From Muscardinus avellanarius (Eukaryota; Chordata; Mammalia; Rodentia; Gliridae), in NCBI GenBank assembly GCA_963383645.1, contig OY726573.1:17014158-17078157 (forward strand): a DNA stretch of 64,000 bases, in the 5' to 3' direction. Below, in pieces: positions 1-28,935 of this stretch. The stretch's first letter is position 1. Every line of letters starts with the position of its first letter. A program made the position numbers and the translations under genes. The notes under the pieces were generated by a model. The model did not search any database. It saw only the letters and a list, made by a program, of their open reading frames with translations, and was not told the origin of the DNA.

Positions 1-1910
1 GTATCGGAGCCTGCTGAGGTGTGAGGCTGGTGCCAGGGCCAGTGAGGCCAGGATCAGAGCCTGCCGTGAGACAAGGCCGGTGCTGGGGCCTCTGAGGCTG
101 GAATCAGAGCCTGCCGAGGGGTTCGGCTAGAGCCAGAACCAGCGAGGCTGGGATCGGAGCCTGCCATGAGGCAAGGCTGGTGCTGGGGCTTCAGAGGCCG
201 GGATTGAAGCCTGCCAAGGGGTTAGGCTGGTGCCAGGGCCAGCAAGGCCAGGATCGGAGCCTGCCGTAAGGCAAGGCCGGTGCTGGGGCCTCCAAGGCAA
301 GGATCGGAGCCTGCCAAGGGTTTTGGCAGGTGCCGGGGGCCAGCAAGGATGGGATCAGAGCCTGCCGTGAGGCAAAGCCAGTGCTGGGGCCAGTGAGGCT
401 GGGATCAGAGCCTGCCAAGGGGTTCGGCTGGAGCTGGAATCAGCGAGGCTGGGATCAGAGCCTGCCATGAGGCAAGGCCAGTGCTGGCTCCTCCAAGGCC
501 GGGATCGGAGCCTGCTAAGGGGTGAGGCTGGTGCCGGGGCCAGTGAGGCCAGGATTGGAGCCTGCAGTGAAGCAAGGCCAGTGCTGGGGTATCTGAGGCC
601 AGGATCAGAGAAAACAGAGGGGTTAGACCTGTGCCAGGACCAATGATGTAGAGATTGTAGCCTGTCACGAGGCTAGGCCAGTGCTGGGGTCTCAGAGGCC
701 AGGATCGGAGCCTGCCAAGGGGTTAGGCTGGTGCTGGAACCAGGAAGGCCAGGATTGCAGCCTGCCATGAGGCAAGGCTGGTGCTGGGACCTCTGAGGCC
801 AGGATCAGAACATACAGAGGGGTTAGGCTGGTGCCGGGGCCAGAGAGGCTGAGATGGGAGCCTACCAAGGGGTTAGGCCGGTGCAGGGGCCAGCAAGGCT
901 GAGATCAGAGCCTGACATGAGGCAAGGCTGGGGCTGGGGTCTCTGAGGCTGGAATCAGAGCCTGCTGAGGGTTTAGGCCTGTGCCATGACCAGCAAGGCC
1001 AAGACCGGAGCCTACCATGAGGCTAGGTCGGTGCTGGGGCCTCTGAGGTCAGAATAGGAGCCTGCCGAGGGGTTAGGCTCGTGCCAGGGCCAGTGAGGTC
1101 AAGATCAGAGCCTGCCAAGGGATTAGGCTGGTGCCGGGGCCAGTGAGGCCAGGATTGGAGCCTGCCATGAGGCCAGGCTGGAGCTGAGGCCTCTGAGGCT
1201 GAGATCAGAGCCTGCCAAGGGTTTAGGCCTATGCTTGACCAGTGATGCTGGGATTGGAGCCTGCTGTGAGGCTAGGCAGGTGCTGAAGCCTCCGAGGCCA
1301 GGATCAGAGCCTGCCGAGGGATTAGGCCAGAGCCAGAACCAGCGAGGCTGGGATCGGAGCCTGCTGTGAGGCAAGGCCGGTGCTGGGACCTCTGAGGTTG
1401 GGATCAGAGCCTGCCAAGGGGTGAGGCCGGTACCGGGGCCAGTGAGGCCGGGATCAGAGCCTCCTGTGAGGCAAGGCCAGCGTGGGGGCCTCCGAGGCCG
1501 GGATTGGAGCCTGCCAAGGGGTTAGGCAGGTGCCGGTGCCAGCGAGGCTGGGATCGGAGCCTGCTGTGAAGCAAGGCCGGTGCTGAGGCCTCCGAAGCCA
1601 GGATCGGAGGCTGCCGAGGGTTTAGGCTGGTGCTGGAACCAGTGAGGCTGGGATTGAAGCCTGCTGTGAGGCTAGGCTGGTGCTGGGGCCTCCAAGGCCA
1701 GGATCAGAGCCTGCCGAGGAGTTAGGCCAGTGCTGGGGCCAGCGAGGCCGGGATTGGAGCCTGCCAAGGGGTGAGGCTGGCACTGGATCCAGCGAGGCCA
1801 GGATCATGGCCTGCCATGAGGCAAGGCCGGTGCAAGAGCCAGCGAGGCTGGGATCAGAGTCTGCCGGGTGGCCAGGCCAGTGCCGGGACCATCAAGAGTG
1901 GGATCAGAAC
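1..1910 (+). repeat. GC-rich 50/100-bp VNTR array (composite element copy 1)
   Basis: About 19 copies of a ~100-bp higher-order unit made of two alternating ~50-bp half units. One half carries GATCGGAGCCTGCCATGAGG followed by CAAGGCCGGTGCTGGGGCC. The other carries GAGCCTGCCGAGGGGTTAGG followed by CTGGTGCCGGGGCCAG. Many CpG sites have decayed to TpG/CpA, as expected for a formerly methylated array. The array runs off the left edge, so its 5' end is unseen. All long ORFs here are by-products of the repeat period. It is joined directly to an L1 3' end and is read in the same orientation as that tail. Confidence 0.93.
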
Positions 1911-2290
1911 TTGCAATGCAGCATACACAGAGAAATATCACAGAAAATAAAAAACCAGATGCTTTCCCTAATATGTAGAAACTAGAAAGAAATAGGTAAT
2001 AGGAAGAGACCTAGTTGAGGAAGGGGCCCTATAGAGCAGCAATTAAGATAACCAATCAGAGGGGATGGGATGGGGGAAGATGGAATCTCTTTAAAACTCA
2101 TGATGTACGTAAACAAATGTATCAAAGTTAATCACCAATCAAGCATGGGATAGAGGGAAGGGAAGGGGATTGGATGGGGATTGGATAAAGGCTAATTGGA
2201 TGATGTGTGCTTGCATATCTTCACAGTTCTTGTATTCCATTGTGATGTATGACTACAATGCACCCATATATATATTTTTAAAAAGTTTGG
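1911..2290 (+). mobile_element. L1 3' end fused to VNTR (composite element copy 1 tail)
   Basis: Immediately after the last VNTR unit the sequence encodes EISQKIKNQMLSLIC and stops, matching the C-terminal end of L1 ORF2 as seen in the local L1 near 8.75 kb. It continues as an L1 3' UTR with a G-rich polypurine stretch (2150-2200) and ends in GATGTATGACTACAATGCAC followed by an AT-rich tail. This segment supplies the presumed L1 reverse-transcriptase recognition end for an otherwise non-coding element. Confidence 0.85.
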
Positions 2291-2491
2291 TGAAAATGGT
2301 AAAGACCTAGACAGATGCTGCATTTAGTTCCCTGCCCCCTCCCCTGAATCTTTAGGTTCTAGCTTCATTCTAAATGTCAGCTCACCAGGGAGTGGTTTAT
2401 GCAAGGAGTGGTTTAGAGCAAGGGAGCTCAGAGGAGCTCTTACTATGGAGCCACACTCAAAGCAAACGCTGTGGCATTTTATAGAGATATC

Positions 2492-2690
2492 TGTGAGCCA
2501 GCAATGGTGGCATATGCCTGTAGTCCCAGAACTTAGAAGGCCGAGGCCAGCATCAGCAAGTTTGTGAAACCCTGTTTCAAAATAGAAAATAAAAGGGCTG
2601 GTGTAGCTTGGAGGTGGAATACACCTGCATTCAATCTCCAGTACAAAAACAAAAAATAAAACAAACAAAAATACTCAAAATAAAACACAC
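2492..2690 (+). mobile_element. B1-dID dimeric SINE
   Basis: The left half has the 7SL-type run GGTGGCATATGCCTGTAGTC. The right half has GTAGCTTGGAGGTGGAATAC and a tRNA-like B box (TTCAATCTCC), followed by an A/CA-rich tail. It is an old, diverged copy. Confidence 0.8.
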
Positions 2691-3530
2691 ACACAAAAAT
2701 TCAAGAATGACTACATTCCTGATATGGAGTTTAAGACAAATATTTAAGGTTAATATGAATACTTCAAGATGCTCACTTTAGCCAACTATGTTGATTATTT
2801 TGACATGAGATACAAGGAGTGTTTACGCATAGAGCTTTGAGGATTTTTGCTTATAATGGAGGCCCAGGAAAGAGGTTAGGCCAGGGTGAGCAGGAGGCTG
2901 AGGGAGGGAGGATGGGCATCCAAAGACTAATGGGGAGAGAAGTGTATATGGAGCTGTGAGGGCGGGAAGCTTTAATCCTGCGAGGGCATGAGCCCTGGCA
3001 CAGCTGGGTGCTAGATACGAGGTGCTGGCAAAGTAGAAACTTCATGACACAGCCTGAAGGGAAATTCCAGACTTGGCTCCTGATTTCTGACCACAAACAC
3101 ACCTACTTTTCCCATCCAGTGACAAAACCCAAGAGTCAAGTCCCTGCCAACCTCATGCCCTCACTTTCTACTGAAAAACACGCCTGCACTTCAAATCATT
3201 CAGTCCCTTGTTCTACTGTTAGTTTTTCACCAGAATTGGGTGGAGTGAGGCTGGTGTTAAGTTGCTGCAGGCCTGCCCAGACTGCACTGAGGATGCTGCC
3301 AAGCAGATGAAGGCGGGGTGGCCACACTTGCACTTTTTGGGTTGTTGGAAGAAAGTGACAAAGTGAGCCAGACACCTGATGGATGGAGGAGGAACCTGTG
3401 GGTGAGAAGTGGGGACCAGGGGACCCAAGACCACAGGGACTTGGGTCTGGGCGTGGCCTCTTGGGGGCTGGGCCGCAGGTCCTCCTAACTACAGGTTTTC
3501 TCCACCTCTGAGATGCACTGTGTCCCACAG
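2691..3530. other. Lipoxygenase 5' flank / first intron region, no gene seen
   Basis: Unique-looking, moderately GC-rich sequence upstream of the first recognisable lipoxygenase exon. No exon 1 (PLAT-domain start) could be recognised. ORFs on both strands lack family resemblance. Confidence 0.4.
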
Positions 3531-3728
3531 GAGAAGGACATACAAGATCAACTTCCCGGTGCATCTAGGGCGCCTCCTGCTCGTGAAGCTGCGCAAGCAC
3601 AGAAGCCTGCTGAACTTTGGTTTTGTAAATGGTTCCAGGTGGAGGGCCCCAGAACCCAAGGGAGGCCTTTTCTCCTTGCTACTGCTGGGTGCAGGATGAC
3701 CAGATTTTCTGTCTGCCTGAGGGCGATG
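3531..3728 (+). pseudogene. lipoxygenase exon 2 remnant
   Basis: Bounded by a good acceptor (TGTGTCCCACAG) and a GT donor (GATG/gtaggg). At 198 nt it is near the ~200 nt usual for this exon. It encodes part of the PLAT/C2-like N-terminal domain. Reading the family sequence requires switching frame at about 3565, 3610 and 3660, so this exon is already dead. Confidence 0.88.
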
Positions 3729-3887
3729 GTAGGGAAACAGTCTACAGCTGGAGAAGCAGAGGCCTGGGTGTGGGTGCTATGATAGAAAAGGGAGAGATGG
3801 GGGAGAGAAGGGAGAGGGAAGAGGAAAAGGCTGGTACCTGCCTGGAGGGGTGTTCACATACCGAGTGCCTTGTGTCCCCTCGCCCAG

Positions 3888-3965
3888 CTCACATCATGAG
3901 TGATGACTCCCAGGACCTGTTCAAGAAACATCGGGAGCAGGAGCTGGAGGACCGAAGGTGTACCG
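3888..3965 (+). pseudogene. lipoxygenase exon 3 remnant
   Basis: Acceptor CCTCGCCCAG and donor CG/gtgagt are intact. The translation DDSQDLFKKHREQELEDRR is unmistakable for this family. The exon is 78 nt where about 82 is usual, consistent with a 4-nt loss just before the conserved YR codons at its end. Confidence 0.88.
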
Positions 3966-4042
3966 GTGAGTCTCGCAGATAGCCTCCATTGCCTGCAAAA
4001 TCCACAAAACTCCTGCCTCGCTGACCACCAACACTTCTCCAG

Positions 4043-4133
4043 GTGGAGCTCATGGAAGGAAGGGTTAATGCTGTCGGTAGCTGGGAAGACCCAGTGGGAC
4101 TTTCCCAGGGACAAACAATTTTCAGAGGATAAG
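4043..4133 (+). pseudogene. lipoxygenase exon 4, interrupted
   Basis: Follows acceptor CTTCTCCAG and reads WSSWKEGLMLSVAG ... WDFPRDKQFSEDK in one frame, matching the start of the catalytic-domain region. Reading stops at the insertion point of composite retroelement copy 2, at the codons for EDK. Confidence 0.88.
4121..4133. repeat. left target-site duplication of composite element copy 2
   Basis: TTCAGAGGATAAG here and TTCAGTTGGATAAG at 5909-5922 agree except for one base and one indel. They flank the A-rich tail on one side and the 5' monomers on the other. Confidence 0.7.
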
Positions 4134-4194
4134 GATTTATTTATTTATTTACTTTTATTTTATCATCTTTTTTAACTTTTTTCTTTAATTTTTA

Positions 4195-4540
4195 TTTGTG
4201 CATTGTAATAATACATCACTTTGGAATACAAGACTTGAGAGGATATACAAGCACACATCATCCAATTAGCCATCATCCAATCCCCATCCCATTCCGTCCC
4301 CCTCCCTCCATCCCATACTTGATTGGTGATAATCTTTGATACATTTGTTTATGTACCTCCTGAGTTTTACAGAGGTTCCATCCTTCCCATCCCATCCCCT
4401 CTGATTAGTTACCTTAATTGCTTCACTATAGGGCCCTTTCTATAACTCGACCTCCTCCTGTTACCCCTTTCCTCCTAGTTTTTGCTTATTAGGGAAAGCA
4501 TATGGTTTTTATTTTCTGTGATATTTCTCTGTGCATGCCG
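4195..4540 (-). mobile_element. L1 3' UTR module of composite element copy 2
   Basis: The reverse complement carries the same tail as copies 1 and 3: ORF2 end, C/G-rich polypurine block (CCCATCCCATTCCGTCCCCC on the + strand), then GTGCATTGTAATAATACATC next to the A-tail. Confidence 0.85.
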
Positions 4541-5460
4541 CATTACAAGTTCTGATCCCAGTCTTGACCGCCCCAGTAGTGGCCTGGCCACCCGGATGAC
4601 TCTGATCCCAACCTCGTTGGCTCCAGCACTGGCCTTGCCTCATGGGAGGCCCTGATTCTGGCCTCGCTGACCCCTGCTCCGGCCTAACCCCTCGGCTGGC
4701 TCTGATTCCGGCCTCGGAGGCCCCAGCACCGGCCTTGCCTCAAGGCAGGCTCCGATCCCAGCCTTGCTGGCCCCAGCACCAGCCTAACCCCTTGGCAGGC
4801 TCTGATCCTGGCCTCGGAGGCCCCAGCAGTGGCCTTGCCTCACGGCACGCTCCAATCCCAGCCTTGCTGGCCCCAGCACTGGCCTAACCCCTCGGCAGGC
4901 TCCAATCAAGGCCTCAGAGTCCCCAGCACCGGCCTTGCCTCATGGGAGGCTCTTATCCTGGCTTTGCTGTCCCCGGTACTGGCCTAACTCCTCGGCAGGC
5001 TCCAATCCCAGCCTCGGAGGCCTCAGTAGTGGCCTTGCAACAAGGCAGGCTCCGATCCCAGCCTCGCTGGCCCCGGCACCGGCCTTACCCTTCGGCAGGC
5101 TCCAATCCAGGCCTTGGAGGCCCCAACACCAGCCCTGCCTCACAGCAGACTCCAATCCCAGCCTCACTGGCCCCGGAACCAGCCTAACCTCTTGGCAGGC
5201 TCCAATCTTGGCCTCGGAGGTCCCAGCACTGGTCTTGCCTCATGGCAGGCTCTGATCCCGGCCTCGCTGGCCCCGGCACCAGCCTAACCCCTTGGCAGGC
5301 TCCGATCCTGGCCTCAGAGGACCCAGCTCTGGCCTTGCCTCACAGCAGGCTCCGATCCTGGCCTTGTTGGCCCCGGCACTGGCCTAAGCCCTTGGCAGGC
5401 TCCAAACCCAGCCTCGCTGACCCTGTCACGGCCTCACCCCTCAGCAGGCTCCAAGCCGAG
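4541..5460 (-). repeat. 50/100-bp VNTR of composite element copy 2
   Basis: About nine 100-bp units. For example, GCCTCGCTGG at 5261 recurs as GCCTTGTTGG at 5361, with the alternate half unit GCCTCAGAGG at 5311. Same two half-unit types as copies 1 and 3. Confidence 0.92.
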
Positions 5461-5908
5461 CACCCTCTTCACCCAACAGGTTGTCCCACGTTCCTGAGGG
5501 TGCGTGGTGGTAGCATTCTGTTTCTGGGATTATTTCTTCAAAAGTTCCAGGTGTAATGCATCAGATCTCTGACTCCCCTCAGTGCTGTATGCTGCCATTG
5601 CCACTGCCTCCACCATTTCAAATCTTTCCCAAGCTCTTTTTCCACTCTGCATGTTGTCCAGTGTTCCTAATCATGCATGAAGATAGCATTCGACATTTGG
5701 GGTAATTTCTCCAGAAGATAAGGTTGGTAAGATCAGATTTCTGCCTCTCCAGAATACAAGTCTCCACCGCCATCGCAGTGACCACTTCCAACACCACCTT
5801 CCTCCTAGGTCTCCGCTAAACTCTCTCCTTACAGGTGATGTCCAGGATTCTTAAGGATGTAGAGAAGAAACAGTCCTCCTTCACGGGGAATTTTTCCAAA
5901 AGTTCCAG
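5461..5908 (-). repeat. ~178-bp degenerate monomers at the 5' end of composite element copy 2
   Basis: Two and a half diverged tandem units. Anchors TTGTCCCACGTTCCT (5481), TTGTCCAGTGTTCCT (5654) and GATGTCCAGGATTCT (5837) are 173 and 183 bp apart. Each is followed by related text around GGGATTATTTCTTCAAAAG, GGTAATTTCTCCAGAAG and GGAATTTTTCCAAAAG. They lie inside the TSDs, so they belong to the element. L1-type 5' UTR monomers with promoter function are one explanation. Confidence 0.78.
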
Positions 5909-5922
5909 TTCAGTTGGATAAG
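5909..5922. repeat. right target-site duplication of composite element copy 2
   Basis: TTCAGTTGGATAAG, partner of 4121-4133. Confidence 0.7.
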
Positions 5923-6140
5923 TTTTGTCTACTTTCAATCCCTAGTATAAATCATTAATAACAACAACAACCAAAACAAACAAGAAACCAAAAACACCAC
6001 CACCACTACCAAAAAAGAAAACTCAATATACAGATTTCCATCTGAGGAATCTGAAAAAAGAGGGAAAATGGGAAGGAGGCTGAACTGTCATTGAGATGAG
6101 ACTTCAGAGACCACAGTGTGCCCCCAACTGATGTCTGCAG
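5923..6140 (+). other. lipoxygenase intron remnant with A-rich SINE-like tail
   Basis: Begins with a possible decayed continuation of exon 4 (GTCTACTTTCAA), then TTCAATCCCTAGTATAAA and an A/C-rich run resembling a SINE tail. No exon recognised. Confidence 0.4.
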
Positions 6141-6331
6141 TGTGGGTCTGTGATTCTGAGATGGATGACACTCTCTTTGGGTACCAGATCCTCAATGGTG
6201 CAACCCCATGCTCCTGATACATTCTAAGAGCATCCCAGCCTGGTTGGTGCTTCCTCCAGGGATGGAAGACCTGCAGAGCCAGCTGGAGAAAGATCTTTAT
6301 TAGTCAGCATGCTTCTGCCCACCTGGGTCAG
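6141..6331 (+). pseudogene. fused lipoxygenase exon-6 / exon-12 remnant
   Basis: Starts after GATGTCTGCAG and reads VCDSEMDDTLFGYQILNGA, then (after a 1-bp loss in the NGANP codons) PMLLIHSKSIPAWLVLPPG and MEDLQSQLEKDLY, then a stop. Immediately after the stop, at 6305-6331, it reads QHASAHLGQ, the end of exon 12, followed by donor gtacaa. Coding sequence for exons 7-11 and most of 12 is absent. The join is coding to coding, so it reflects a genomic deletion and not splicing. Confidence 0.88.
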
Positions 6332-6414
6332 GTACAAGGCGACATCCCTGGGGCCCCTGGGGTGTAGGATGTGGGTTCCCATGCCTGGACTTCTGAGCAC
6401 CTTTCCTACTGCAG

Positions 6415-6582
6415 CTGGACTGGTACTCCTGGGTCCCCAATGGCCCATGCACCATGCGGAAGCCCCCACCCGTCTCCAAGGACGTGACGGAGAAGGACGT
6501 AGTGGAGTCCCTGCCTGACCTCCAGCAGGCCCGGATACAAAAGACTGTCACCAAGTTCCTTGGCAGACGCCAGCCCGTCATG
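6415..6582 (+). pseudogene. lipoxygenase exon 13 (intact)
   Basis: Acceptor CTACTGCAG, in-frame [19 protein letters not shown] through FLGRRQPVM, donor ATG/gtgaga; 168 nt. No stop or frameshift. WYSWVPN and PCTMR are conserved family blocks of the C-terminal catalytic domain. Confidence 0.9.
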
Positions 6583-6681
6583 GTGAGAGCGACGTGGGGA
6601 TCCTGGGGAGGCGGCAGCCTAAGGAGGGGGGCAGCTCAGATGAGAGGCTCATGAGCTGAGCCCCTTTGTCCTGCCCCTCAG

Positions 6682-6861
6682 GTGGTCTTGGGGCAGCATA
6701 AGGAGAAATACTTCTCAGGTGATGAACCCCAGATGGTGCTGGAGCGATTCCAGGAGGAGCTGGCTGCCATGGACCAGGAGATTGAGGTGCAAAATTCAGG
6801 CCTGGACCTGCCCTATGAGTATCTGAGGCCCAGCGTGGTAGAAAACAGTGTGACCATCTGA
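6682..6861 (+). pseudogene. lipoxygenase exon 14 (intact terminal exon)
   Basis: Acceptor TGCCCCTCAG, then VVLGQHKEKYFSG, ERFQEELAAMDQEIEVQNSG, LDLPYEYLRPSVVENSVTI and TGA. The terminal isoleucine, an iron ligand in active lipoxygenases, is kept. Intactness of the last two exons against a broken 5' half may be chance, because the locus lacks the histidine ligands. Confidence 0.9.
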
Positions 6862-7214
6862 AAGGGCTTTCCCACCTGCGCCCAAGCTCACTGTGCTCAC
6901 AGCCCTGAGTCCTCCTGTCCTCTATGTGCACACCTCTCCTGGACAGATGCCCAAGCTGTACAGCGGTGTGCTCAGAGCTGCCCACCAACAGCTCTGGGAC
7001 ACACGCAGCACTCCCCATGCAGGACGGACCCCAGAACCTTCCACGCTGCCATCCTTCAATGCCATCCAGGCCTGCACTGCCTCAGCCTCCCATCCCTCTC
7101 TGCTTCTCTTCCCTAAAGGATCCACTTTATGTACAAATGAGCAGATCTTGTTAAATGATAAAGGTATACATGTGGTAAGGGAAGTGTGAGAAGATACTTG
7201 ACTTGTTTCTCTTC
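6862..7214 (+). other. former lipoxygenase 3' flank, no gene
   Basis: Unique sequence after the lipoxygenase stop codon. No AATAAA polyadenylation signal was seen before the CCTT repeat. No other feature. Confidence 0.4.
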
Positions 7215-7274
7215 TTTTTCCTTCCTTCCTTCCTTCCTTCCTTCCTTCCTTCCTTCCTTTCTTCCTTCCTTCTT
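7215..7274. repeat. (CCTT)n microsatellite
   Basis: About 13 CCTT units abutting the tail side of a SINE. Confidence 0.95.
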
Positions 7275-7473
7275 GTGTGGTATTGGGAATTTAACTCAGA
7301 GTCATTATACCTCCAAGTTACACTCCAGTCCTATTTTTTATTCTTTATTTTGAAACAGGGTCTTCCTAAGTTGGGAAGTGCCTCACTAAGTAGCTGAAGC
7401 TGGCTGTCAACCGCCATCTTTCTGTCTCAGCCTGCCAAGTACTGGAATTACAAGACTGTGCTACCACACCCAG
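7275..7473 (-). mobile_element. B1-dID SINE
   Basis: Reverse-strand copy: dID half at 7280-7330, B1 half ending in CTACCACACCCAGC. The adjoining CCTT run sits at its A-tail side. Confidence 0.85.
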
Positions 7474-7571
7474 CTTCCTTCCTTTTCTATTTTCCTTCCT
7501 TCTTTCTTTTCTTCCTCCCTTCTGTCCTTCCTTCCTTCCTTCCTTCCTTCCTTCCTTCCTTCCTTCCTTGT
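7474..7571. repeat. (CCTT)n / pyrimidine-rich microsatellite
   Basis: Imperfect CCTT/CTTT tract between two reverse-strand SINEs. Confidence 0.9.
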
Positions 7572-7599
7572 TTTTCTTTCATTCTTCCCACTCTCCTAC

Positions 7600-7659
7600 C
7601 TCTTCCCTGTACTAGGAATTCAATCCAATGCATTCTACCTTCAAGTTACACCCCCAGCC

Positions 7660-7706
<47 letters not shown>

Positions 7707-7812
7707 AAACAGGATCTTGCTAGGTTGCTGAGAGTCTCATTAAGTTGCTGAAGCTGGTCTCAAACCTGCATTCCTCCTGTCTCAGTACAGGCATGCCCCA
7801 CCACGCCTGCCT
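7600..7812 (-). mobile_element. B1-dID SINE with (TG)n in its linker
   Basis: Typical reverse copy, but the A-rich linker between the halves is replaced by about 21 TG units at 7661-7703. Confidence 0.85.
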
Positions 7813-8145
7813 CCTTACTTGTTTCCTGGCCCCTCATTCAGATTCTAAGGGATAAAGGAATGATGTTTTCTCTCCCAGAAAATCTCTGTCAACACTTCCT
7901 TCCAGTTCCCTTAGCCTCTCTAGCTAAATGACAGAAGTTGTGGCTGACTGAGCCCAGTGGGGTTTGGGGACCTGGTTGTGAACAACGGCTTGAGCTTGAG
8001 GCTGCTCTGAATCCCCAGCCAATATGTCTTGGGCCAACTGCAAGAGCAGCCCTGTGGGACTCCTTGCCTGCCTCTCTGTGCCACCACCTCTCAGCAGCAT
8101 CTCACCCTTCCTCTTAGCCCTCTCCCAACAGTCTTTTTTTTATTT
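7813..8145. other. no recognisable feature
   Basis: Unique sequence without exon-like or repeat signals. Confidence 0.4.
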
Positions 8146-8336
8146 TTAAATGGGACTGGAACCTAGGAGCATTCTACCTCCAAGATATACCCATTGCCTG
8201 AGTTTTTATTTTTATTTTTGAAAGTTCTTGCTTTATTGTTGAGTCTCACTGCTTGTTGAGGTTGTCCTGGAATCTGGCATCCTGCTGCTCTACCTCCCAA
8301 GTGTTGGGATTACAGGCCTGTATCACCATGCTAGGC
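8146..8336 (-). mobile_element. B1-dID SINE
   Basis: TGGGACTGGAACCTAGGAGC at the dID side and ATCACCATGCTAGGC at the B1 side. Confidence 0.82.
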
Positions 8337-8440
8337 TGTGAGACTCTGTTTCAAAATAAAAAATAAATCTGGGCTAGGGGTTTAGTTCAGAGGTAGACCA
8401 CCTTTGTGTTCAATCCCTAGAATCACAAAAAATAAAGACC
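8337..8440 (+). mobile_element. partial B1-dID SINE (3' half)
   Basis: Starts at the GAGACTCTGTTTCAAAATAA linker and continues into a dID half with TTCAATCCCTAGAATCAC. It abuts the preceding inverted SINE. Confidence 0.75.
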
Positions 8441-8454
8441 AAAAAGAGCTACCT

Positions 8455-9090
8455 TGATGCCTTAACATCAGATGTATAACCTGGAATTAACCTATTTTAT
8501 GATCCAACAATACCACTTCTGTGTATCTACCCAAAAGAATGAAAATCAGACTACCAAACTAATGCATGTCTATCTATGCTCTTACCTACACAATTCACAA
8601 TTGCCAAACTATGAAACCAGGTTAGATGACTATCAACAGATGAATGGGTGTCAAAACTCTGGGATATTACACAATGGAATTTTACTCAGCCTTAAAGGAA
8701 AACAACATTATGTTATCTGCAGAGAAATTGCTGGAACTGGAAAACATTATGTTAAGTGAGATTAACAAGTCACAAAAAGTAAATCAGATACTTTCCCTAA
8801 TAGGCAGATGCTAGGGAGAAAAAAGATCATAGGAGGAACTCTAGACAAAGAAGGAAAAACCATAGAGGAGCAAATAGGCACCTAACTGAGGGAGATGGAT
8901 GGGGGGAAAAGAAAAATCCCCTGATGTACATGATGTACATTCACAAACAAGCCAAACATGAGAAGGAGAGAGATGGGGTGGGAATTGGTTAAGGGCTAAG
9001 TGAATGATGTGTGCATGTATGCCTCTACCATCTGTACCCCATTAAGATGTGTAACAACAATGCACCAGTAAAAATAAATAAAAAAGAAGT
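8455..9090 (+). mobile_element. L1 3' end (ORF2 C-terminus and 3' UTR)
   Basis: Contains classical ORF2 3' text (CACAATGGAATTTTACTCAG; ATGTTAAGTGAGATTAACAA), then a 3' UTR with a G-rich block and the terminus AACAATGCACCAGTAAAAAT. This 3' terminus closely resembles the tails of both the VNTR composite and the HAL1-like elements, so it is the local reference for the shared L1 3' module. Confidence 0.88.
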
Positions 9091-10049: not shown

Positions 10050-10052
<3 letters not shown>

Positions 10053-17493: not shown

Positions 17494-17494
<1 letters not shown>

Positions 17495-19303: not shown

Positions 19304-19306
<3 letters not shown>

Positions 19307-19500: not shown

Positions 19501-19719
19501 AAGGCACAGGTATTATAATGCTGTGATGCCATCCAGGGGGACCTGAGAGAAGTAATCCTTCTGGTAACAGTGTTGTTTTTCCCTGTGAAAACAGACACAG
19601 CAGGAAGCTTCTCTGGAAAATCTTGTCTTAAAAGTCTCTAAATACTTAGGTCAAATCACCCCATTTAGTTTTTCTATGCATACCTACAACAGTAGATTTA
19701 GTGGGCTTGTTTCTTTCTT

Positions 19720-19912
19720 TTTTGTGTGTGGTACTGGGGTTCCTGGAAGCCCTTCTACCTCCGGGCTACACTCCCAGACCTATTTTTACATTTTTATTTG
19801 GAAACAGGGTCTCCTAAGCCAGCTTGCGCAGCTGGCTTCGAACCTGCGCGATCCTCCTGTCTCTGCCTCCCAAGCGCGGGGATTACAAGCGTGTGCCACC
19901 ACGCCCAGCATC
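19720..19912 (-). mobile_element. B1-dID SINE, young variant subfamily
   Basis: CpG-rich copy (GCGCGATCCTCC, AAGCGCGGGGATTACAAGCG). The right half has TTCCTGGAAGCCCTTCTACC. The left half carries the inverted-repeat-like AGCCAGCTTGCGCAGCTGGC instead of the doubled CTTAGTGAG text of the other subfamily. Confidence 0.88.
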
Positions 19913-20154
19913 GTTTCTTTATTCTTTGGCTCTATCCTGGTTTTTAAATGTCTGAATTATTGGCCAGTGAATATTTATATTTGAACAGAACATAATTTTG
20001 TCACCTGAATAAAAGAGGTTTTATTATATATAGTATACTATAGTACATGTAGTATGCAAACATAGTACTAATATAATATTATAATATATATTATTATATC
20101 TCTAAGTCTAGCCCAATCACCCTCACAGATTTTCAAAATCAGTGTCACTAGAAT
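19913..20154. other. AT-rich spacer
   Basis: Contains alternating TA-rich sequence at 20025-20100. Confidence 0.4.
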
Positions 20155-20769
20155 ATGACAACAGTGACATATTCTTTGCATAAAGAAAGGGTAAGTGGTC
20201 AGCGACGTTCCCTCAGGCCAATCCCACAGGACCTGCGCACTGCAGGCTCCTCTTCACCAGACAGGGATGGAGAAGGCAGTGTGAGGAGGCCCCGAGGCCC
20301 CAGCTTCGGGCCGGCTACAGCGCATTGTGGGCACGCCGACTGCCAGCCTCCCACATCATGGCGGCCTTACTCTCAGCTGAGAGGGAAAGGGCCAGGACTT
20401 GGCCACTGTGCTTCTGTCTGGGCACAGAGGCATCACAGAGTTGCCATAGCTGAAGGTTTCTGGGGGAACACGGTGAACAGGGCAGCTTTCCAGGCTGCCT
20501 GCCCTTGCTTGCAAATAGGCAGAGAGTCTCCTGAGCTCCTGTGTGGCTGTCTGGGCTACAGAAGGAACCGGAACGTCTTCTCACACTCTCGAACAATCCA
20601 GACTCAGGCTCCTTTAAGTGCCCTGGGTTGCTGCTTACTGCATAAGCAGGGATCAAACCCACTTCCCACCCACTGCTTTCTCCTGGGGTCTTTCTGGTTA
20701 GAGAAGGAGGGCTCTGCCTGGGCATGTAGAAAAGTGCAGGCGCCGCCACTGGCCCCACAAGAGTGAACA
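20155..20769 (+). other. 203-codon ORF of unknown status
   Basis: Open from ATG at 20155 to a stop at 20766, and a 151-codon ORF is open on the opposite strand at 20770-20315. The region is GC-rich. On the - strand it has a GCCGCCATGATG start context at about 20355 and CACAATGCGC just downstream. The predicted proteins are Ser/Pro/Arg-rich with no recognised domain, so a coding role is not supported. A GC-rich promoter remnant or chance ORF is more likely. Confidence 0.25.
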
Positions 20770-20794
20770 CTGAGCTGCCCCCTCCTGCTTACAT

Positions 20795-20890
20795 GGCCTT
20801 GGGAGAGTCCCTCCTTCTCTGGGCCCCACTGCTGTCATCTCCATGGGGATGGAGATGCTGACAGTGCCTGTTACAACGACTATGAGCAAT
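20795..20890 (+). repeat. MIR-like ancient SINE fragment
   Basis: GGCCTTGGGAGAGTCCCTCC, then CATCTCCATGGGGATGGAGA, as in MIR. Confidence 0.5.
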
Positions 20891-21164
20891 TGAGCCGGAC
20901 ATCAATAGGAATAACCTGCTTATAAAGACAGCGTGGTCGGCGTTAGCACAGGGATTGGCCAGCAGAGCAATTGGAAAGGGATGTGGAGGCCAGAAACAAA
21001 GGCAGGCAGATGTGGACACTTCAGGACTGACAGAGCGCTGCTGTAAGTCACATGGGACCAGAGGGACTATTTAATAAATGATGCTGAGACAGGAGGTGTC
21101 CACCTGTAAAAAAAAAAAAAAAAGAAGGACCTTTGTTCTTATCAAAATAAAGAATAAAAAAAAT
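20891..21164. other. no recognisable feature
   Basis: Unique sequence ending in a poly(A) run at 21106-21123. Confidence 0.35.
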
Positions 21165-21439
21165 AGGGCTGGGGGACAGGCGTGGTGGCGCACGCTTGTA
21201 ATCTAAGCATTCAGGAGGCTGAGACTGGAGGATATGGGTTTGTGGAGAGACTCAGCTACTTAGTGAGGCCCTCCACAACTTAGTGAGACCGTTTCAAAAA
21301 TAAAGAATGAAAAATAGCTCTGAGTTCAAATGCCCCTGGATTCTATCCCCACAACCACACACACAAAAATAGGGCTGAGGGTGTAGCTTGGAGTATAGAA
21401 TGCCCCTGTATTTTGCGGTACTCAATCCCAAGTACTGCA
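21165..21439 (+). mobile_element. B1-dID SINE with an extra dID half
   Basis: Full dimer at 21165-21365 (CGTGGTGGCGCACGCTTGTA to CCTGGATTCTATCCCCAC), then a second right half at 21367-21439 (GGGCTGAGGGTGTAGCTTGG), giving a B1-dID-dID trimer. Confidence 0.78.
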
Positions 21440-21442
21440 AAA

Positions 21443-21472
<30 letters not shown>
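21440..21472. repeat. (AAAT)n microsatellite
   Basis: Eight AAAT units at the SINE tail. Confidence 0.95.
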
Positions 21473-21473
<1 letters not shown>

Positions 21474-22257
21474 GAGATACAAACTCAACAAAATTGGAGG
21501 AATATACACCTAGTGAAATAAAACTTCAAAACTATCAGAATAGGACTTTAAATAAATATAATTAAGATGTTCAAAAGGGTAAGAGTGAGTACTATAAACC
21601 TGAAACAGGAACTGGAAGTTACTAAGCGAGGCAGCTGGAGAACATGAAAATAAACAATAACTACTGTTGAAATTAAAACCCAGTGGCAGGGTGGATGGAG
21701 GTGAAAAGCCAACTTGTGAGTTGGAAGTTTGGACGGAGGAATTTCTTGAAAACTCCACACCCAGAAAGAAAGCTTCATAAAGCGGGGAAGAACACACTGA
21801 GGAATGTGGAAAGAAGACTCAAAAGTTCCAGCATCCTCTTAAAAGTCCAAAAAGAAGAAACTAGAAAAAAATGGAGGACAGGGGCTATTGATGAAATAAT
21901 GTCCTGTGGTTAATCATGAAGACTTGAACCTCTGCTCCTCTTTTTCTCTCCTTCTTCCCCAACTAAAATTCTCTCCTTCTTCCCCAACTAATTGATAGCT
22001 TAAAAAAAATGCAGAAATTCTAGTATGAAAATGAATGGAGATGACACAAGAGTCAATAAGAAACATCTGCATTTGGGATGTTGAAAGCAGATGGACAATT
22101 GGTCATTGATTTAGCAGAGAATGTTAAGTCCAAGCTTGCAGTGTGTGGATTGGCCAATAATCACAGATACTCAGAATGATTCAGAAAACAGAGTGCTAAT
22201 AACCTCCAAAGGAGGCAGTACAAACGAGGCTGGACACAGTACACGTGACTGAAAATC
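21473..22257. other. unique sequence, no gene
   Basis: AT-rich. A short direct repeat CTCTCCTTCTTCCCCAACTA occurs twice around 21946-21990. Nothing else recognised. Confidence 0.4.
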
Positions 22258-22309
22258 AGTTACAGGCAGGTACCACCACGCCTGGCCAAAAACATTTTAA
22301 AAAAGAAGG

Positions 22310-22560
22310 CTGAAGCTAGGCATGAAATGCACACCTGTAATCCTAGTACTAAGGAGGCTGAGAGAGGAGACTGAAGATCTGAGGCCAGCCTCAACAGCTT
22401 AGAAAGATTCTCATTCCAAATAAAAAGTAAAAGGCACTTTGGGGGTAGATTGGCGATAGAATACATCTGGATTCGATTCCAAGAAGAAAAAGAAGGGGAG
22501 GAAGAGGAAAAAGAGCAGCAGGAGGAGAAGGAGCAGGAGGAGGAGGATGCAGAAGACCAA
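22310..22560 (+). mobile_element. B1-dID SINE with purine-rich tail
   Basis: Old dimer at 22310-22485 (GCACACCTGTAATCCTAGTA). Its tail has grown into an AAG/AGG purine tract at 22485-22550. Confidence 0.78.
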
Positions 22561-22639
22561 CCTTCCTCAATTATGACATTGCTAGGGAGAAGTCTTGGAA
22601 ATAAATAGAACAAAGATAAGCTAAAAAAAATTTTTTTCA

Positions 22640-22836
22640 GAACTTGGGATTGAACCCAAGGGCATTCTACCGCTGAGCTATAGCCCCAGCCCTATTTTTG
22701 TATTCTTCATTTTGAAACAGGTTCTCACTGAGTTGCGGAGGGCCTCACTAAGTATCTGAGGCTGGCCATGAACTTTGGATACTCCTGTCTCAGCCTCCTA
22801 AATACTGGGATTACAAGCGTGCGCCACTTTGCCCCA
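22640..22836 (-). mobile_element. B1-dID SINE
   Basis: GGGATTGAACCCAAGGGCAT to AAGCGTGCGCCACTTTGCC. Confidence 0.85.
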
Positions 22837-22989
22837 CTTAAACTAAAATACTGCTACAGGCCACCTGTGGGTTTGCTATGGGACTACTGTGGGTCCAGTT
22901 AGCCAGAGGAAAATTTCTGCTGGCAGGAATGATTACAACATATGTTAAGAATACAAATAGATCATATCAAATCTTATAATGGATCCCCT

Positions 22990-23126
22990 CCTTCTTCCCT
23001 CCTACTTTCAAGATGGAGTCTTGCTATGGTGCCCAGGTTGGCCCAGAATTCTTAGGCTCAAGCGATTATCCCACCTCAGCCTTCTAAGTAGTTGGAACTA
23101 CCTGGATGCACCATCACACCCAGATT
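22990..23126 (-). mobile_element. monomeric 7SL-derived SINE (B1/FLAM-like)
   Basis: AAGATGGAGTCTTGCTATGG, GGCTCAAGCGATTATCCCAC and GCACCATCACACCCAG with no dID half. This resembles the free 7SL monomers that preceded B1. Confidence 0.65.
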
Positions 23127-23320
23127 CACGCCCAGATTCGTATTTTTCTCAGTCTATTGAAACTCTCTCCACTCTCCTTATATGTCAGAAACGGCCCTCA
23201 AGCTCCCTGGGAAGCCAGCCACTTGCCAACAACCTTGCAGAGAAATGCAACTCTTTAGGATATCTCCCCTCACCTAATTTTTTTCTTTTCCTCTTTCTTT
23301 CCTTCCTTCTTTCTTTCTTC

Positions 23321-23341
23321 TTGTGTGTGCGTGTGTGTGTG

Positions 23342-23375
<34 letters not shown>

Positions 23376-23386
23376 GAGAGAGAGAC

Positions 23387-23453
<67 letters not shown>
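23321..23453. repeat. compound (TG)n(GA)n microsatellite
   Basis: About 53 bp of TG with a few CG breaks followed by about 78 bp of AG; strong pyrimidine/purine asymmetry. Confidence 0.95.
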
Positions 23454-23455
<2 letters not shown>

Positions 23456-23520
23456 TCTTGGGTGCTCTATCTCTGAGCCACATCCCCAGTTCTTCCACGG
23501 GTTTTGTTTTTTCTTTTTCT

Positions 23521-23720
23521 TTTTGGTATTAAGGATTGAACCCAGGGCCCTTCTACCTCTGAGTTACACCCCCAGCCTGATTTTATCTTTTATTTGGAAT
23601 TAGGGTCTCACTAGGTTACTGAAAGCCTTGCTAAATTGCCATGGCTGGCTTTGAACCTGTGATCCTCACATCTCAGCCTCCCAAGTACTAGAATTACAGG
23701 TATGTGCACCATGCCCAGCG
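23521..23720 (-). mobile_element. B1-dID SINE
   Basis: GGTATTAAGGATTGAACCCA to TGTGCACCATGCCCAGC. Confidence 0.85.
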
Positions 23721-23762
23721 GAGAGGTTTTGTTTTTAAATATATTCTCCCTGAAGTGTGTGT

Positions 23763-23850
23763 GTGTGGGGGGGGGGGGAATAGCTAATAGTAAAGAGCTT
23801 CCATAGCAAGTGTGAGGTCCTGGGTTTGATCTCCAGTATAATTTAAAAAT
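23763..23850 (+). mobile_element. ID-like SINE with anticodon arm
   Basis: GAATAGCTAATAGTAAAGAG, CTTCCATAGCAAGTGTGAGG, TCCTGGGTTTGATCTCCAG. It retains the loop region missing from dID, so it is an ID rather than a dID unit. Confidence 0.6.
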
Positions 23851-23892
23851 ATATATTCTATCAACATGGTTCATTTGCTTAAAAGAGGGGTG

Positions 23893-24078
23893 GGGGGAGC
23901 CAGGCATGGTGGTACAAAGCTGAGACAGGGGCTCACAAGTCTGAAGCCAGACTCAGCAATTTAGAATGCCCTCAGTAACTTAGTGAGACCCTTTTTCAAG
24001 ATAAAAATAAAATAAAATAGGGCTTGGGGTATAACTCAAAGATAGAATGTTCCTGGATTCAAACTCTAGTACCACATA
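23893..24078 (+). mobile_element. B1-dID SINE
   Basis: GCCAGGCATGGTGGTACAAA to TCCTGGATTCAAACTCTAGT. Confidence 0.82.
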
Positions 24079-24082
24079 AAAA

Positions 24083-24184
24083 GAAAGGAAGGAAGGAAGG
24101 AAGGAAGGAAGGAAGGAAGGAAGGAAGGAAGGAAGGGAGGGAGGAAGGAAGGAAGGAAGGAAGGAAGGAAGGAAGGAAGGAAGG
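24083..24184. repeat. (GGAA)n microsatellite
   Basis: About 25 GGAA/GGGA units growing from the preceding SINE tail. Confidence 0.95.
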
Positions 24185-24356
24185 AGAAAAGAAGGGAAAG
24201 GAAATAAGGCAGGCAGGCAGGGAGGCTGTAGAAGGTGGGAGGTACCACCCCCAGGGCAGGTGGGGGTGTGGGGACACAGGGAAGCAGGATGTGATAGAAA
24301 TGGTAGAGGAAGTTTTAGAACCAGTGATGCTGACATTCATTTGTAAATAAAATAAT

Positions 24357-24440
24357 ATCAGCTAGTACCTAGAGGGTTGTGTGTCAGGCATTGTTCTAGG
24401 GCCTAAACATATTAGCTCATGAAAGACCACAAGAGGGCTT
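24357..24440 (+). repeat. MIR-like fragment
   Basis: GTGTCAGGCATTGTTCTAGG, then ACATATTAGCTCATGAAAG, resembling the MIR core. Confidence 0.5.
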
Positions 24441-25239
24441 GGAATTAAAATCCTAGTTAATATTAAGGGCCAAGGGGCTGTACTTACCTGGAAAAGACAG
24501 AGTTCGTGTGAACTGCCCAAATCTGCAGGGTCCCTAAAGTGACTTTACACTGTGCCCTGCCATGCAGACTGGCACTCCTGGGTCCTGAACATTTCTGCAC
24601 CCACTAGGGAGGCTCACCCACTAGGAGAAGCCTGGCCTCAGGCCTCTCTCAAGGTGACTGGCCCGTGGTATTCGGTGTACTTGGGATCCTAATGCCCAGA
24701 AGTTTAAGGAGGATGGAGGAAGGGAGGCTGGAGGGGGAGGCCGAGGGAGGTGAGTGGGGAGCCAGTCATGAGCTGTTACTCTTCAGGTTCTAGGAGGTCT
24801 AGGTTAACGCTGGGCATTTAAGGAAGGCCAGGGTTAAGGCAGTAGTGACCCGGGATGGAAGACTTGGGGCAGCACGGGATCTAACAGGGGTCATCCCCAG
24901 CCCAGAAAAGTGGGGAGACCTGGAAACCATGGAAAGTGTTCTCATGCTTGTTCACTGAGACCCAGAGGCTCCTGGCGTCAAGCTCCTCAGGAGGGCTAGA
25001 GCCTGGCCTGCACCACCTCTGGCCTCAGACTGCCCAGAGTTCCTAGACCCCCAGCAGCTCTGCTGCTCAGCTCTGACTTGTGGGCTCAGCCCTTCCCTGC
25101 AGATGGCTCTGCAACTCCCCTTGCTCACAGGTTCCTGCTAGTCTGGGCAGGAAGTGGGAGTGCCTAGGGGTCATGAGGGTGGGACCCAGACCCTTCTTTT
25201 AAAGAGTTGGGACTGGCCCTGAGGCCCTGGGCCACAGGG
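24441..25239. other. upstream region of second lipoxygenase remnant
   Basis: GC-rich unique sequence. No exon recognised before the exon-1 remnant. Confidence 0.4.
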
Positions 25240-26841
25240 GTTGCTATGGACAGCTATGGTGTCCCCTGGCCCCAGGCGCCAAGGTCTTCTTGGGCTCACA
25301 CAACCACCAGCGGCTGCTGCCTGCGAGGGGAGAGGTGGGCATAGGGTGGAGGCCCTGGGCAGGAGGTGCAGGCCTGGGTGGCTGCTAGGGAGCCTCCACT
25401 GCTAGGCAGGATCTGGGCTGCAAACAAGGTAACCCTGTGTTCTCCTGGACCCAGTCCTGGCAGCAGCCCCCCTTGCAAGGGGCCAGTGGCTCTGAAACAG
25501 GCGGTGCAGGGAGGACCACCACTCAAGTAAAAGCATCCGTGCTGTGCACCCTTCCTCCTGCTCCAGAGGCTGTCCAAGACCGCAGGGGAGGAGGGCGCCA
25601 TAGCGCTGAAGCCGGATAAAATGAGGCTGGCGGGCAAAGACGAGCAGGGGCTGAGTGTGTCAGTCTGGCCCTACAGGAGGAAGTGCTGGGCCTAGACACA
25701 ACCCTTCGAGGACCTAGGGCTGCTGCAGTTCGTGGGGCTGTGCAAACTATTCTGGCTGCTGGACCATGGTGGTTCTGTGAGCATGTGGTGGTGCAGGGTG
25801 GTGCACAGAGCAGCCTTCCCCTGCTCTCCCTGGGTGCTGCGCCAGCAGGTGCTGAGCCTGCCAGAGGGCACTGGTGAGCAGAGTGTGAGAGCAAGACAGC
25901 AGGGCAGTAACAACAACTGAGTCCCTGGGTTTTCCCAGAAGGGACACTGGAGGATGGCCAGAGGGGAGGCAAAAGATCTGGGGATCCCCTGCTCCAAGAG
26001 GCAAGGCCAGGGAGGGATGAAGGAAAGCAGAAGCATAGTACAAGTGGAGAGGGGGTGGCTCTGTGACTCAGAACGGGTTAGGGCAGGCGAGAATGCTCAT
26101 GAATGGAGACTTGTAGGCAGAAGACAGCTATGACCACAGATGATGGAAATACATGGATGATGGAAATACATGAATGATGACTGTCATCCATAAATATAGG
26201 CTCAAATACTGAAATATTGACTGTGGAAAATGAGAAATGACAGGATGGAGTCAGGAGTGGATGACTGAGGCCAGTGAGGAAGGGCAGGTGAGCGCAGAAG
26301 CAAGTTCAGTGGAGTGAGGGAGAAAGGTGAGCTGAAGGGCTCCTAGAGGACCAGGATTGTGTCAGGCAGGGAAAAGACCTGAGAAATAAAGCGAATCAAT
26401 AGGAGGCAACAGAGAGGTGTGAACCTGTGGGTGACTAAGATGTTATCACCTTGATTAAGGTGATCTTTTCCCCAACCTTAGACACTATTGAAACAGGGTC
26501 AGGTAGAGAAGATGAGTTAAGGGACAAGAAAATGTGGGAAACCTCATATTTTTGTTTCCCGGGAAGGTTAGATTAGGGCTGAACTGTGAGTACAGCTGGG
26601 AATGAGAGACTGCCAACCCTGGATAACTTATCTCAGGATGGAGTGAGGCAGAGCCACTGATCAATGCAACAGAGCAGGACTCAGCACATCACATCTAACT
26701 ACAAAAAGGGCAAGCAGAGAAGCAGGAAGACCCAAAATCTATGGCTAATCTCACTGTCTCCCAGCTCACCTGACAGGGGACTGCTTGGATGTCTTCCAGC
26801 AGCACCAGGTGCAGGAGCTGGAGGAGACAGTAGTCCTACTA
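25240..26841 (+). pseudogene. second lipoxygenase remnant (exons 1-3, ALOX12/15-like)
   Basis: Exon 1 remnant at about 25246-25337 starts ATGGACAGCTATGGTGTC and, after a frame change, reads GAKVFLGSHNHQRLLPARGE. Exon 2 spans 25677-25873 (acceptor GGCCCTACAG, donor CTG/gtgagc, 197 nt) and reads EEVLGLDTT, then FEDLGLLQFVGLCKLFWLLD, then in other frames AFPCSPWV and LSLPEGT. Exon 3 spans 26777-26841 (acceptor CACCTGACAG, donor TA/gtgagc, ~17 nt short) and reads CLDVFQQHQVQELEE. The FEDLGLLQF wording is nearer, from memory, to ALOX12 than to ALOX15. Frameshifts and the absence of exons 4-14 in the window show it is dead. Confidence 0.85.
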
Positions 26842-27074
26842 GTGAGCCTGCCTCAGAGTGCCTGCCATCCTGACCTGCTCAGGCCCTCACCCATCTCAGA
26901 GCCCACCTGAAGCTCAATCTCCACTTCTAGCTGGGTCACCTGGAAAGAAGGGCTGCCCCTGACAACAGCAGTTGACCACAAGGAGCACCTGCCTCCAAAT
27001 ATGAGGTTCCATGACATCTTGGTTGATTCCATCTCTAGGTTGTTAATTGCACTGACATATATATGAAGGTGAGG
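26842..27074. other. no recognisable feature
   Basis: Spacer after the lipoxygenase remnant. Confidence 0.35.
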
Positions 27075-27200
27075 GTATCACTCCAAGATATTTGTTTCAT
27101 TTCTTTTAGATATATTTTCAGCAGTGGGATAGCTGGATCAAATGATAGTTCTAAATTTCATATACTCTTGTTCTTAAACACACACACAAATTTTAACTAT
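27075..27200 (-). mobile_element. L1 ORF2 fragment
   Basis: Antisense text TTCAGCAGTGGGATAGCTGG and ATCAAATGATAGTTCTAAAT, as in the 3' part of L1 ORF2. Confidence 0.65.
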
Positions 27201-27273
27201 ATCATACATGAGACAATTTCAGCATTCTCATGCAGGCCTCTTTGGTAAGAAAAGCTTTAGGTAGTTTTTCAGG

Positions 27274-27287
27274 GAGACAATATTTTA
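27274..27287. repeat. left TSD of composite element copy 3
   Basis: GAGACAATATTTTA, an exact 14-bp match to 28922-28935. Confidence 0.9.
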
Positions 27288-28921
27288 TTTTATTTTATTT
27301 TTTTTAGTTCCATGATTTATTTTTTTATTTTTTTAAATATATTTTTATTGTTGCATTGTAGTCAAACATCACAGTGGAATACAAGACTTGTGAGGGTATA
27401 TAAGCATATATCATCCAATTAGCCCTTATCCCGTCCCCATCCCGTTCCCTCCCCCTCCCTCGATCCCAAGCCCGACTTGGTGATTAACTTTGATATATTT
27501 GTTTACGTACATCATGCATTTTAAAGAGATTCCATCTTCCCCCATCCCATCCCCTCTGATTGGTCACCTTGATTGCTCTTCCATGAGGCCCTTTCTTCAA
27601 CTAGCTCTCCTCCCATTACCCATTTCTTCCTAGTTTTTGCATATTAGGGAAAGCATCTGATTTTCTATTTTCTGTGATGTTTTTCTGTGTATGCCATATT
27701 GCAAGTTCTGTTCCCGCTCCTGAAGGAGCCACCAGCAGCATTGCCCCCTGGTAGACTTTGATCGCGGCCTCGCTGGCTCCAGCAACGGCCTTGCCTCATG
27801 GCAGGCCCCAATCCCTGCCCTGCTGACCCCAGCTCTGGCCTCACCCTCAGGAGGCTCCGATCCCTTCTTCAGAGGCCCCAGCACCAGCCTTGCCTCACGG
27901 CTGGCTCCATTCCCGGCCTTGGAGGCCCCAACACAGGCCTTGCCTCACGGCAGGCTTCAATCCCATCACACTGGCCCAGTCTCTGGCCTTACCCGTCGGC
28001 AAGCCCTGGTCCCGGCCTTCCTGGCCTTGCTGGCCTCACTCCTCAGCAGGATCCGATCCCAACCTCGGAGGCCCCAGCACCAGCCATGCCTCATGGCAGG
28101 CCCCGGTCCCAGCCTAGCTGGTCCTGGCACCAGCCTAACCCCTCGGCAGGCTCCGATTCCGGCCTCAAAGGCCCCTGCCCCGGCCTTGCCTAATGGCTGT
28201 CTGTGATCCAGGTTTCGCTGGCCCCAGCACCAGCCTAACCCCTTGGCAGGCTCCAATCCTGGCCTCAGAGGCCTCATCACCAGTCTTGCCACATGGCAGG
28301 CTCCGATCCCAGCCATGCTGGCCCCAGCACCAGCCTAACCCATTGGCAGGCTCCGATTCTGGCCTCGGAGGCCCCAGCACCAGCCTTGCCTCTTGGCAGG
28401 CCTCGGTCCTGGCCTTGCTGGTCCCGGCACTGGCTAACCCCTCGGCAGGCTCCGGTCCCGGCCTCGGAGGCCTTATCACCAGCCTTGCCTCATGGCAGGC
28501 TCCAATCCCGGCTTCGCTGGCCCCGGCACCGGCCTCACCTCTTGGCAGGCTCCAATTCTGGCCTTGAAGGCCCCTGCACTAGCCTTGCCTCATGGCAGGC
28601 TCCGATACCAGCTTTGGTGGCCCTGGTACCAGCCTCACCCCTCGGCAGGCTCTGATCCTGGCCTCGAAGGCCCCAGCACTGGCCATGCCTCATGGAAGGC
28701 CCTGGTCTTGACTTCACTGGCCCCGGCAATGGCCTAACCCCTTGGCAGGCTCCAATCCTGGCCTCGAAGGCCCCTGCACTAGCCTCGCCTCATGGCAGGC
28801 TCTGATCCCAGCTTCGCTGGCCCTGGCACTGGCCTCACCCCTCGGCAGGCTACAATCCTGGCCTTGGAGGCCCCACCCAGCACCGGCCTAGCCTCACAGC
28901 AGGCTCTGGTCCCGGCCTTGT
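27288..28921 (-). mobile_element. VNTR-L1 composite retroelement copy 3 (complete between exact TSDs)
   Basis: On the - strand: VNTR (28921-27701), then the ORF2 end reading SQKIENQMLSLIC and the L1 3' UTR (27700-27345), then an A/T-rich tail (27344-27288). The exact 14-bp TSD fixes both ends, so VNTR plus L1 tail moved together in a single event. The 5' end falls inside the VNTR, and the ~178-bp monomers of copy 2 are lacking. This copy was probably 5' truncated or initiated within the array. Confidence 0.93.
27701..28921 (-). repeat. 50/100-bp VNTR of composite element copy 3
   Basis: About twelve 100-bp units of the same two half-unit types. A few units are shortened (around 27840-28060). 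Confidence 0.93.
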
Positions 28922-28935
28922 GAGACAATATTTTA
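28922..28935. repeat. right TSD of composite element copy 3
   Basis: GAGACAATATTTTA, partner of 27274-27287. Confidence 0.9.

Follow-up and report, generated by a model that had tools for sequence, protein, structure and literature searches.

The question raised by the window, that is, the whole 64,000-nt stretch of Muscardinus avellanarius contig OY726573.1 analyzed herein, is what kind of element is represented by three sequences in it that fuse a GC-rich variable number tandem repeat (VNTR) to the 3' end of a LINE-1 (L1). The original prediction had regarded them as copies of one SVA-like composite. As judged from comparisons across the host assembly (2.5 Gb, 104 contigs), they very probably belong to a large family of non-autonomous VNTR composite retrotransposons without long terminal repeats (non-LTR), which would be copied in trans by L1. 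This interpretation is based on a constant module order, dispersal as one unit, target site duplications (TSDs), TTAAAA-like target sites, 5' truncation and inversion, and two or more subfamilies of different divergence; it is also in keeping with the host genome, where ORF1 frames of L1, about 329 codons long, occur commonly.

Module order and genome-wide dispersal

A query consisting of the tail plus VNTR of window copy 2 retrieved, as the best 40 of 7,763 first-look candidates, copy 2 and 39 other places with 89-92% identity, and the anatomy was read from 20 of these 39 non-self matches, each fetched with about 7 kb of upstream sequence. The full order of the element comprises GC-rich ~70-bp monomers, a leader, about three ~175-bp repeats, the 50/100-bp VNTR, the end of L1 open reading frame (ORF) 2, the L1 3' untranslated region (3'UTR), AATAAA, and an A-tail. 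The leader is characterized by an A-rich run and a CAAGATGGCC motif, and a 703-nt consensus of the leader with the first VNTR half unit was found to contain about three imperfect repeats of ~175 bp. A common ~475-bp domain was present in eight of the 20 fetched copies, where GC-rich sequence of the monomer type and the A-rich/CAAGATGGCC leader lie before it; 11 others start in or beside the VNTR, including L020 with an inverted piece. The VNTR varied in length from about 0.24 to 3.2 kb among the fetched copies, and one array exceeded 6.5 kb.

Some variation was also observed within the 5' part. An extra ~230-bp segment lies between the monomers and the leader in L016, L018, and the upstream region of copy 1 (L086), and it seems absent from the other long copies, indicating 5' subfamilies. 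In L012 (oriented 6493-7070), the monomers are followed by just the initial ~50 nt of the leader, which pass straight into the VNTR, the middle being absent; enclosed by a 15-nt TSD, this locus represents an internally deleted composite copy.

A 35-nt pattern spanning the VNTR-tail junction matched 4,306 places (2,130 + 2,176) with up to three mismatches, and its reversed form matched none; the junction is thus not due to chance. This count is a lower bound, because copies 1, 2, and 3 carry three, two, and six mismatches, respectively, so that copy 3 itself falls outside, and it was adopted in place of a flank-based copy count (139,571 bases of flanking sequence yielded two further pieces of VNTR), which was set aside. 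Similarly, a pattern for the leader-VNTR junction matched 894 places (430 + 464) with up to three mismatches, compared with zero for the reversed control. The VNTR adjoined the tail in 23 copies, and with a 3'UTR query of the older, copy 1 type (best 40 of 4,905 candidates scored, 20 fetched), it was again located upstream in 20/20 fetched flanks, 18 in sense and two inverted orientation. From the other side, a leader query (best 40 of 3,533 candidates scored, 16 fetched) revealed that the leader runs into the VNTR in 16/16 cases. The element is dispersed as one unit, as had been proposed for its VNTR and L1 tail.

The copies also carry the hallmarks of L1-type insertion. Among 22 copies assessed (the 20 fetched loci and window copies 2 and 3), 15 showed a TSD score of at least 9, compared with 4/462 mismatched flank pairs. 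TTAAAA was matched at 5/6 positions or better in 11 of the 15 copies with TSDs, and random flank sets averaged 1.2/15 with 0/2000 reaching 11, although long copies had their 5' ends placed by eye and the TSDs start in A-rich DNA, which favors the motif somewhat. Truncation at the 5' end was variable among the copies, and in L020, repeats of the target sequence enclose a 5'-inverted element, an arrangement which twin priming by L1 would give. These dispersed junctions, TSDs, and endonuclease-like sites bore out the expectation of tens or more independent insertions. Within L020 (oriented ~6250-7510), a sequence resembling a short interspersed element (SINE) lies beside the 5'-inverted composite and the 12-nt target AAAAGAGTTGAA occurs three times; this region is two insertions at one site. 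The types of SINE seen in the flanks resemble those of squirrels or dormice.

Spread by duplication at the DNA level, as of a satellite or a segmental duplication adjoining an L1 end, has to be considered in view of a VNTR at C1:~6.71 Mb, which has a period of ~900 bp and exceeds 6.5 kb in length. However, VNTR-tail junctions lie on at least 22 contigs among the matches listed (C1-C20, C23, and C24) rather than at the single satellite locus that would have refuted the original prediction, and the copies have their own TSDs, the L1-type target motif, and variable 5' truncation. We therefore consider such an origin hardly credible: the comparisons refute it for the family in general, and it may hold just for the one long array. 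In this array, covered by L029, L083, and L084 (C1:~6.711-6.718 Mb), the composite VNTR of more than 6.5 kb with its ~900-bp higher-order period adjoins a chimera with an L1.

Taken as an L1-dependent retrotransposon, the composite would be transcribed from an internal promoter within the 5' monomers or leader into a polyadenylated RNA, which L1 proteins would then reverse-transcribe at TT/AAAA nicks, and its VNTR may change in length by slippage or unequal exchange.

Relation to L1

In the tail of copy 1, an open frame ends with ..SQKIKNQMLSLICRN. An old L1 in the window (~8700-9085), whose ORF2 ends with LSLIGRC as read by eye, has an ORF2 end (~8700-8815) homologous to that of copy 1, and over 120 nt, its 3'UTR and the composite tail showed 77.5% identity. 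Because both the open frame and the 3'UTR resemble this old L1, the composite tail was identified as an L1 3' end. A different ending was seen in the three young L1s that were read, with ORF2 closing as ..KKIHMFPLICPN* (frame shown in two of the three), and at the ORF2 end just 37/49 nt align with the composite (two alignments shown). The assertion that the 3' end is L1 itself accordingly holds for the origin of the ORF2 end and 3'UTR, but the 3'UTR is not that of the three young L1s.

An L1 tail at one end raises the possibility that the VNTR and leader are a tandem-monomer L1 5'UTR like that of mouse L1Md, with the composites arising from copies of such an L1 by internal deletion or splicing. 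The 5' monomers and CAAGATGGCC motif are reminiscent of L1 5'UTRs, and at one locus, L029, the VNTR and composite tail adjoin ORF1. Loci with ORF1 were collected by a profile search (PF02994), in which the best 150 of 38,950 candidates were scored, most with open frames of ~329 codons. At 11 of the 12 loci read from these 150, a sample outside which an extinct or rare L1 with a VNTR 5'UTR could lie, neither VNTR, leader, nor monomers were matched in the ~1.1 kb before ORF1, save for A-rich-run matches of up to 39 nt, and for two young L1s none of the three was found for a further ~1.6-2.0 kb upstream. Nine of the 12 have one common 5'UTR without VNTR (the other eight being 88-99% identical to L031), and L033 and L035 have a different 5'UTR, likewise without VNTR.

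The sole VNTR-bearing locus among the 12, L029, proved to be a chimera rather than an L1 with such a 5'UTR. Its VNTR extends over more than 6.5 kb and leads into the L1 tail of the composite itself; this tail is broken before its end at GGCTAATTGGATG, and the middle of ORF1 of a 5'-truncated L1 comes next. A simple nested insertion is unlikely, because no remnant of the composite tail was seen after the A-tail of this L1. The chimera, whose outer TSD lies beyond the sequence read, would be accounted for by template switching from one RNA to another. Considering further that the VNTR is joined directly to the tail at 4,306 places, we regard derivation from an L1 5'UTR as quite unlikely, and the reservation that the sequence might be the ordinary 5'UTR of an L1 could be set aside. 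Identity as a full-length L1 was rejected, as the VNTR adjoins the tail, without ORF1 and ORF2 in between, in the 23 copies and the 20 further flanks.

Copies within the window and their age

The features of the three copies are summarized in Table 1, in which negative coordinates denote the host contig to the left of the window.

Table 1. Parts of the VNTR composite copies in the window
Feature	Position	Strand	Remarks
Copy 1 VNTR, mostly alternating 50-nt half units	1..1914	+	left part beyond window edge, to about -1326
Copy 1 L1 tail and 3' TSD	1920..2290	+	ORF2 end, stop 1983-1985, L1 3'UTR
Copy 2 L1 tail	4134..4536	-	A-tail, 3'UTR, ORF2 end
Copy 2 VNTR	4551..5452	-	17 half units counted
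Copy 2 5' leader with imperfect ~175-bp repeats	5453..5929	-	5' end missing
Copy 3 L1 tail	27288..27692	-	
Copy 3 VNTR	27725..28921	-	5' truncation inside VNTR
Copy 3 TSD GAGACAATATTTTA	27274..27287	.	at 3' end of copy 3
Copy 3 TSD GAGACAATATTTTA	28922..28935	.	at 5' end of copy 3

Tandem Repeats Finder located 50/100-bp arrays at 3-1887, 4551-5423, and 27773-28906; as the program gives no strand, the orientations (+, -, and -) were assigned from the other comparisons. A landmark scan of nine VNTRs, including all three window copies, revealed that half units A and B mostly alternate at a spacing of ~50 nt with few A-A or B-B pairs, and each array is ended by a 3' segment, that of copy 2 being 85% identical to that of copy 1 and 80% to that of copy 3. 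The three copies thus lie where, and on the strands on which, they had been predicted, and the 100-bp VNTR of alternating half units was confirmed with the qualification "mostly".

Other details had to be revised. Copy 1, placed and oriented correctly but delimited to 1-2290, turned out to be a long element extending beyond the window through a 3.2-kb VNTR (start about -1326), leader, and monomer-type sequence to a 5' end at about -2230. All modules are present in this copy, and its ends are matched exactly over the 11 nt of AAAAAGTTTGG (2280-2290; mate at L086:519-529, ~2.2 kb outside the window). Of the two copies described as lying between TSDs, copy 3 does have GAGACAATATTTTA on both sides, but for copy 2 no TSD was found in flank-match scoring (best match 6 nt), and a 7-nt match, GGATAAG, at 4127 and 5916 has its latter site within the leader consensus. 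Likewise, the parts list was right in the VNTR and L1 tail but omitted the 5' modules, including the leader of copy 2.

Divergence from the consensus of 23 tails, which itself leans to young copies, was 1.1-4.4% for the 20 fetched copies, 5.2% for copy 2, 12.3% for copy 1, and 14.5% for copy 3, and at 18 sites, copies 1 and 3 agree with each other but differ from no fewer than 18 of the 21 other tails. These values and shared sites therefore indicate recent activity and the existence of two or more subfamilies, with copies 1 and 3 assigned on such differences to an older subfamily.

Several points weigh against regarding the family as an L1-mobilized, non-coding composite. No scored TSD was found in seven of the 22 copies (L009, L010, L011, L013, L016, L017, and window copy 2), of which L010 nevertheless has an 11-nt A-rich match. 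The long loci were drawn from the best-scoring matches, so that young, well-kept copies are over-represented. A donor L1, having ORF2 directly upstream of a composite-type 3'UTR, was not found in general scans, no search being aimed at it, and neither the VNTR unit, the monomers, nor the leader was traced to a source. Furthermore, the leader consensus holds an open stretch of 106 codons, its longest before the VNTR, and VNTR frames are open for up to 160 codons, all these stretches being judged by length without protein-family comparison. Open VNTR frames can arise by composition, and we infer that the composite would make no protein.

Comparison with SVA, LAVA, and L1-derived elements

The plan of the composite is like that of SVA, LAVA, PVA, and FVA, which, as far as the sources used describe them, are non-autonomous elements having a 5' module, a GC-rich VNTR, a distinct 3' module, an A-tail, and a TSD. 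SVA-type units are given there as 30-50 bp, and the 50-nt half unit of the composite lies within this range. The A-tail, the TSDs (15/22), and the TTAAAA-like sites (11/15) are of the SVA/LAVA kind as well, as are the matched ends of copy 1. In passages of PMC4432496, VNTR composites are described as "specific to hominoid primates" and as mobilized by L1 in trans; for the composite, the insertion hallmarks point to the same route.

These similarities would also fit SVA or LAVA proper, present through contamination or descent from the ape family. Rfam includes 7SL/SRP among its families, and no Rfam family matched the full-length copy L018 (900-3900) at E<=1; no Alu-like 5' region was thus detected in it, no separate CT-hexamer scan being made, and monomers and a leader stand in its place. 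Furthermore, the 3' module consists of the L1 ORF2 end and 3'UTR rather than SINE-R, the LAVA 3' end, PTGR2, or FRAM, a distinction drawn with no direct alignment. The composite was set apart from SVA/LAVA proper because both its 5' and its 3' module differ, and with thousands of copies across large contigs, an ape origin is extremely improbable.

HAL1 denotes a half-L1, an L1-derived element. Like HAL1, the composite is non-autonomous, L1-derived, and terminated by an L1 3' end; unlike HAL1, it has only the VNTR between leader and tail and no ORF1, no ORF1 profile search having been run on the composite itself. A HAL1-like, ORF1-only L1 derivative occurs in the window as three copies 93-97% alike, at ~34,011-36,770 (+), ~32,250-34,0xx (-), and 36,787-~39,9xx (-), two of which meet tail to tail, inverted, at 36,770-36,787. 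It consists of a ~770-bp 5'UTR, an ORF1 of ~320-330 amino acids, ~1 kb in which stops break all six frames of the + copy, an L1 3' end, and an A-tail. Elsewhere in the genome, L033 resembles the + copy at 94% and L035 at 90%, and the last ~140 nt of the derivative match the composite tail at 79-81%. Mouse L1Md, for which an excerpt of PMC9022269 describes a tandem-monomer 5'UTR, resembles the composite in having tandem monomers at the 5' end, where they may act as a promoter in the composite; unlike L1Md, the composite lacks ORF1 and ORF2, and its VNTR occupies the center and is directly joined to the 3' end.

Convergence with SVA/LAVA is the best reading of the composite family. No non-primate VNTR composite was met in the literature searched, within the part of the results viewed, and the family is likely unnamed, as judged from the literature rather than from Dfam or Repbase. 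It is reasonably probable that VNTR composites arose independently outside apes, as an unnamed family that combines a multi-monomer 5' end of its own with a 3' end captured from L1. Such a family would have spread in two or more waves to thousands of copies, exceeding human SVA, would be recent by divergence, and would have a VNTR that can become a satellite-like array. As to abundance, 4,306 junctions at up to three mismatches compare with roughly 2,700 SVA copies per human genome as given in a passage of PMC4982230. The family constitutes a large supply of CpG-rich insertions in the host genome. If true, a second origin, with neither the 5' nor the 3' part related to those of the ape families, would point to the GC-rich ~50-bp VNTR common to both as the feature that turns such RNAs into good L1 substrates or enables them to persist, and a comparative test of VNTR function would become possible between this family and the SVA/LAVA type.

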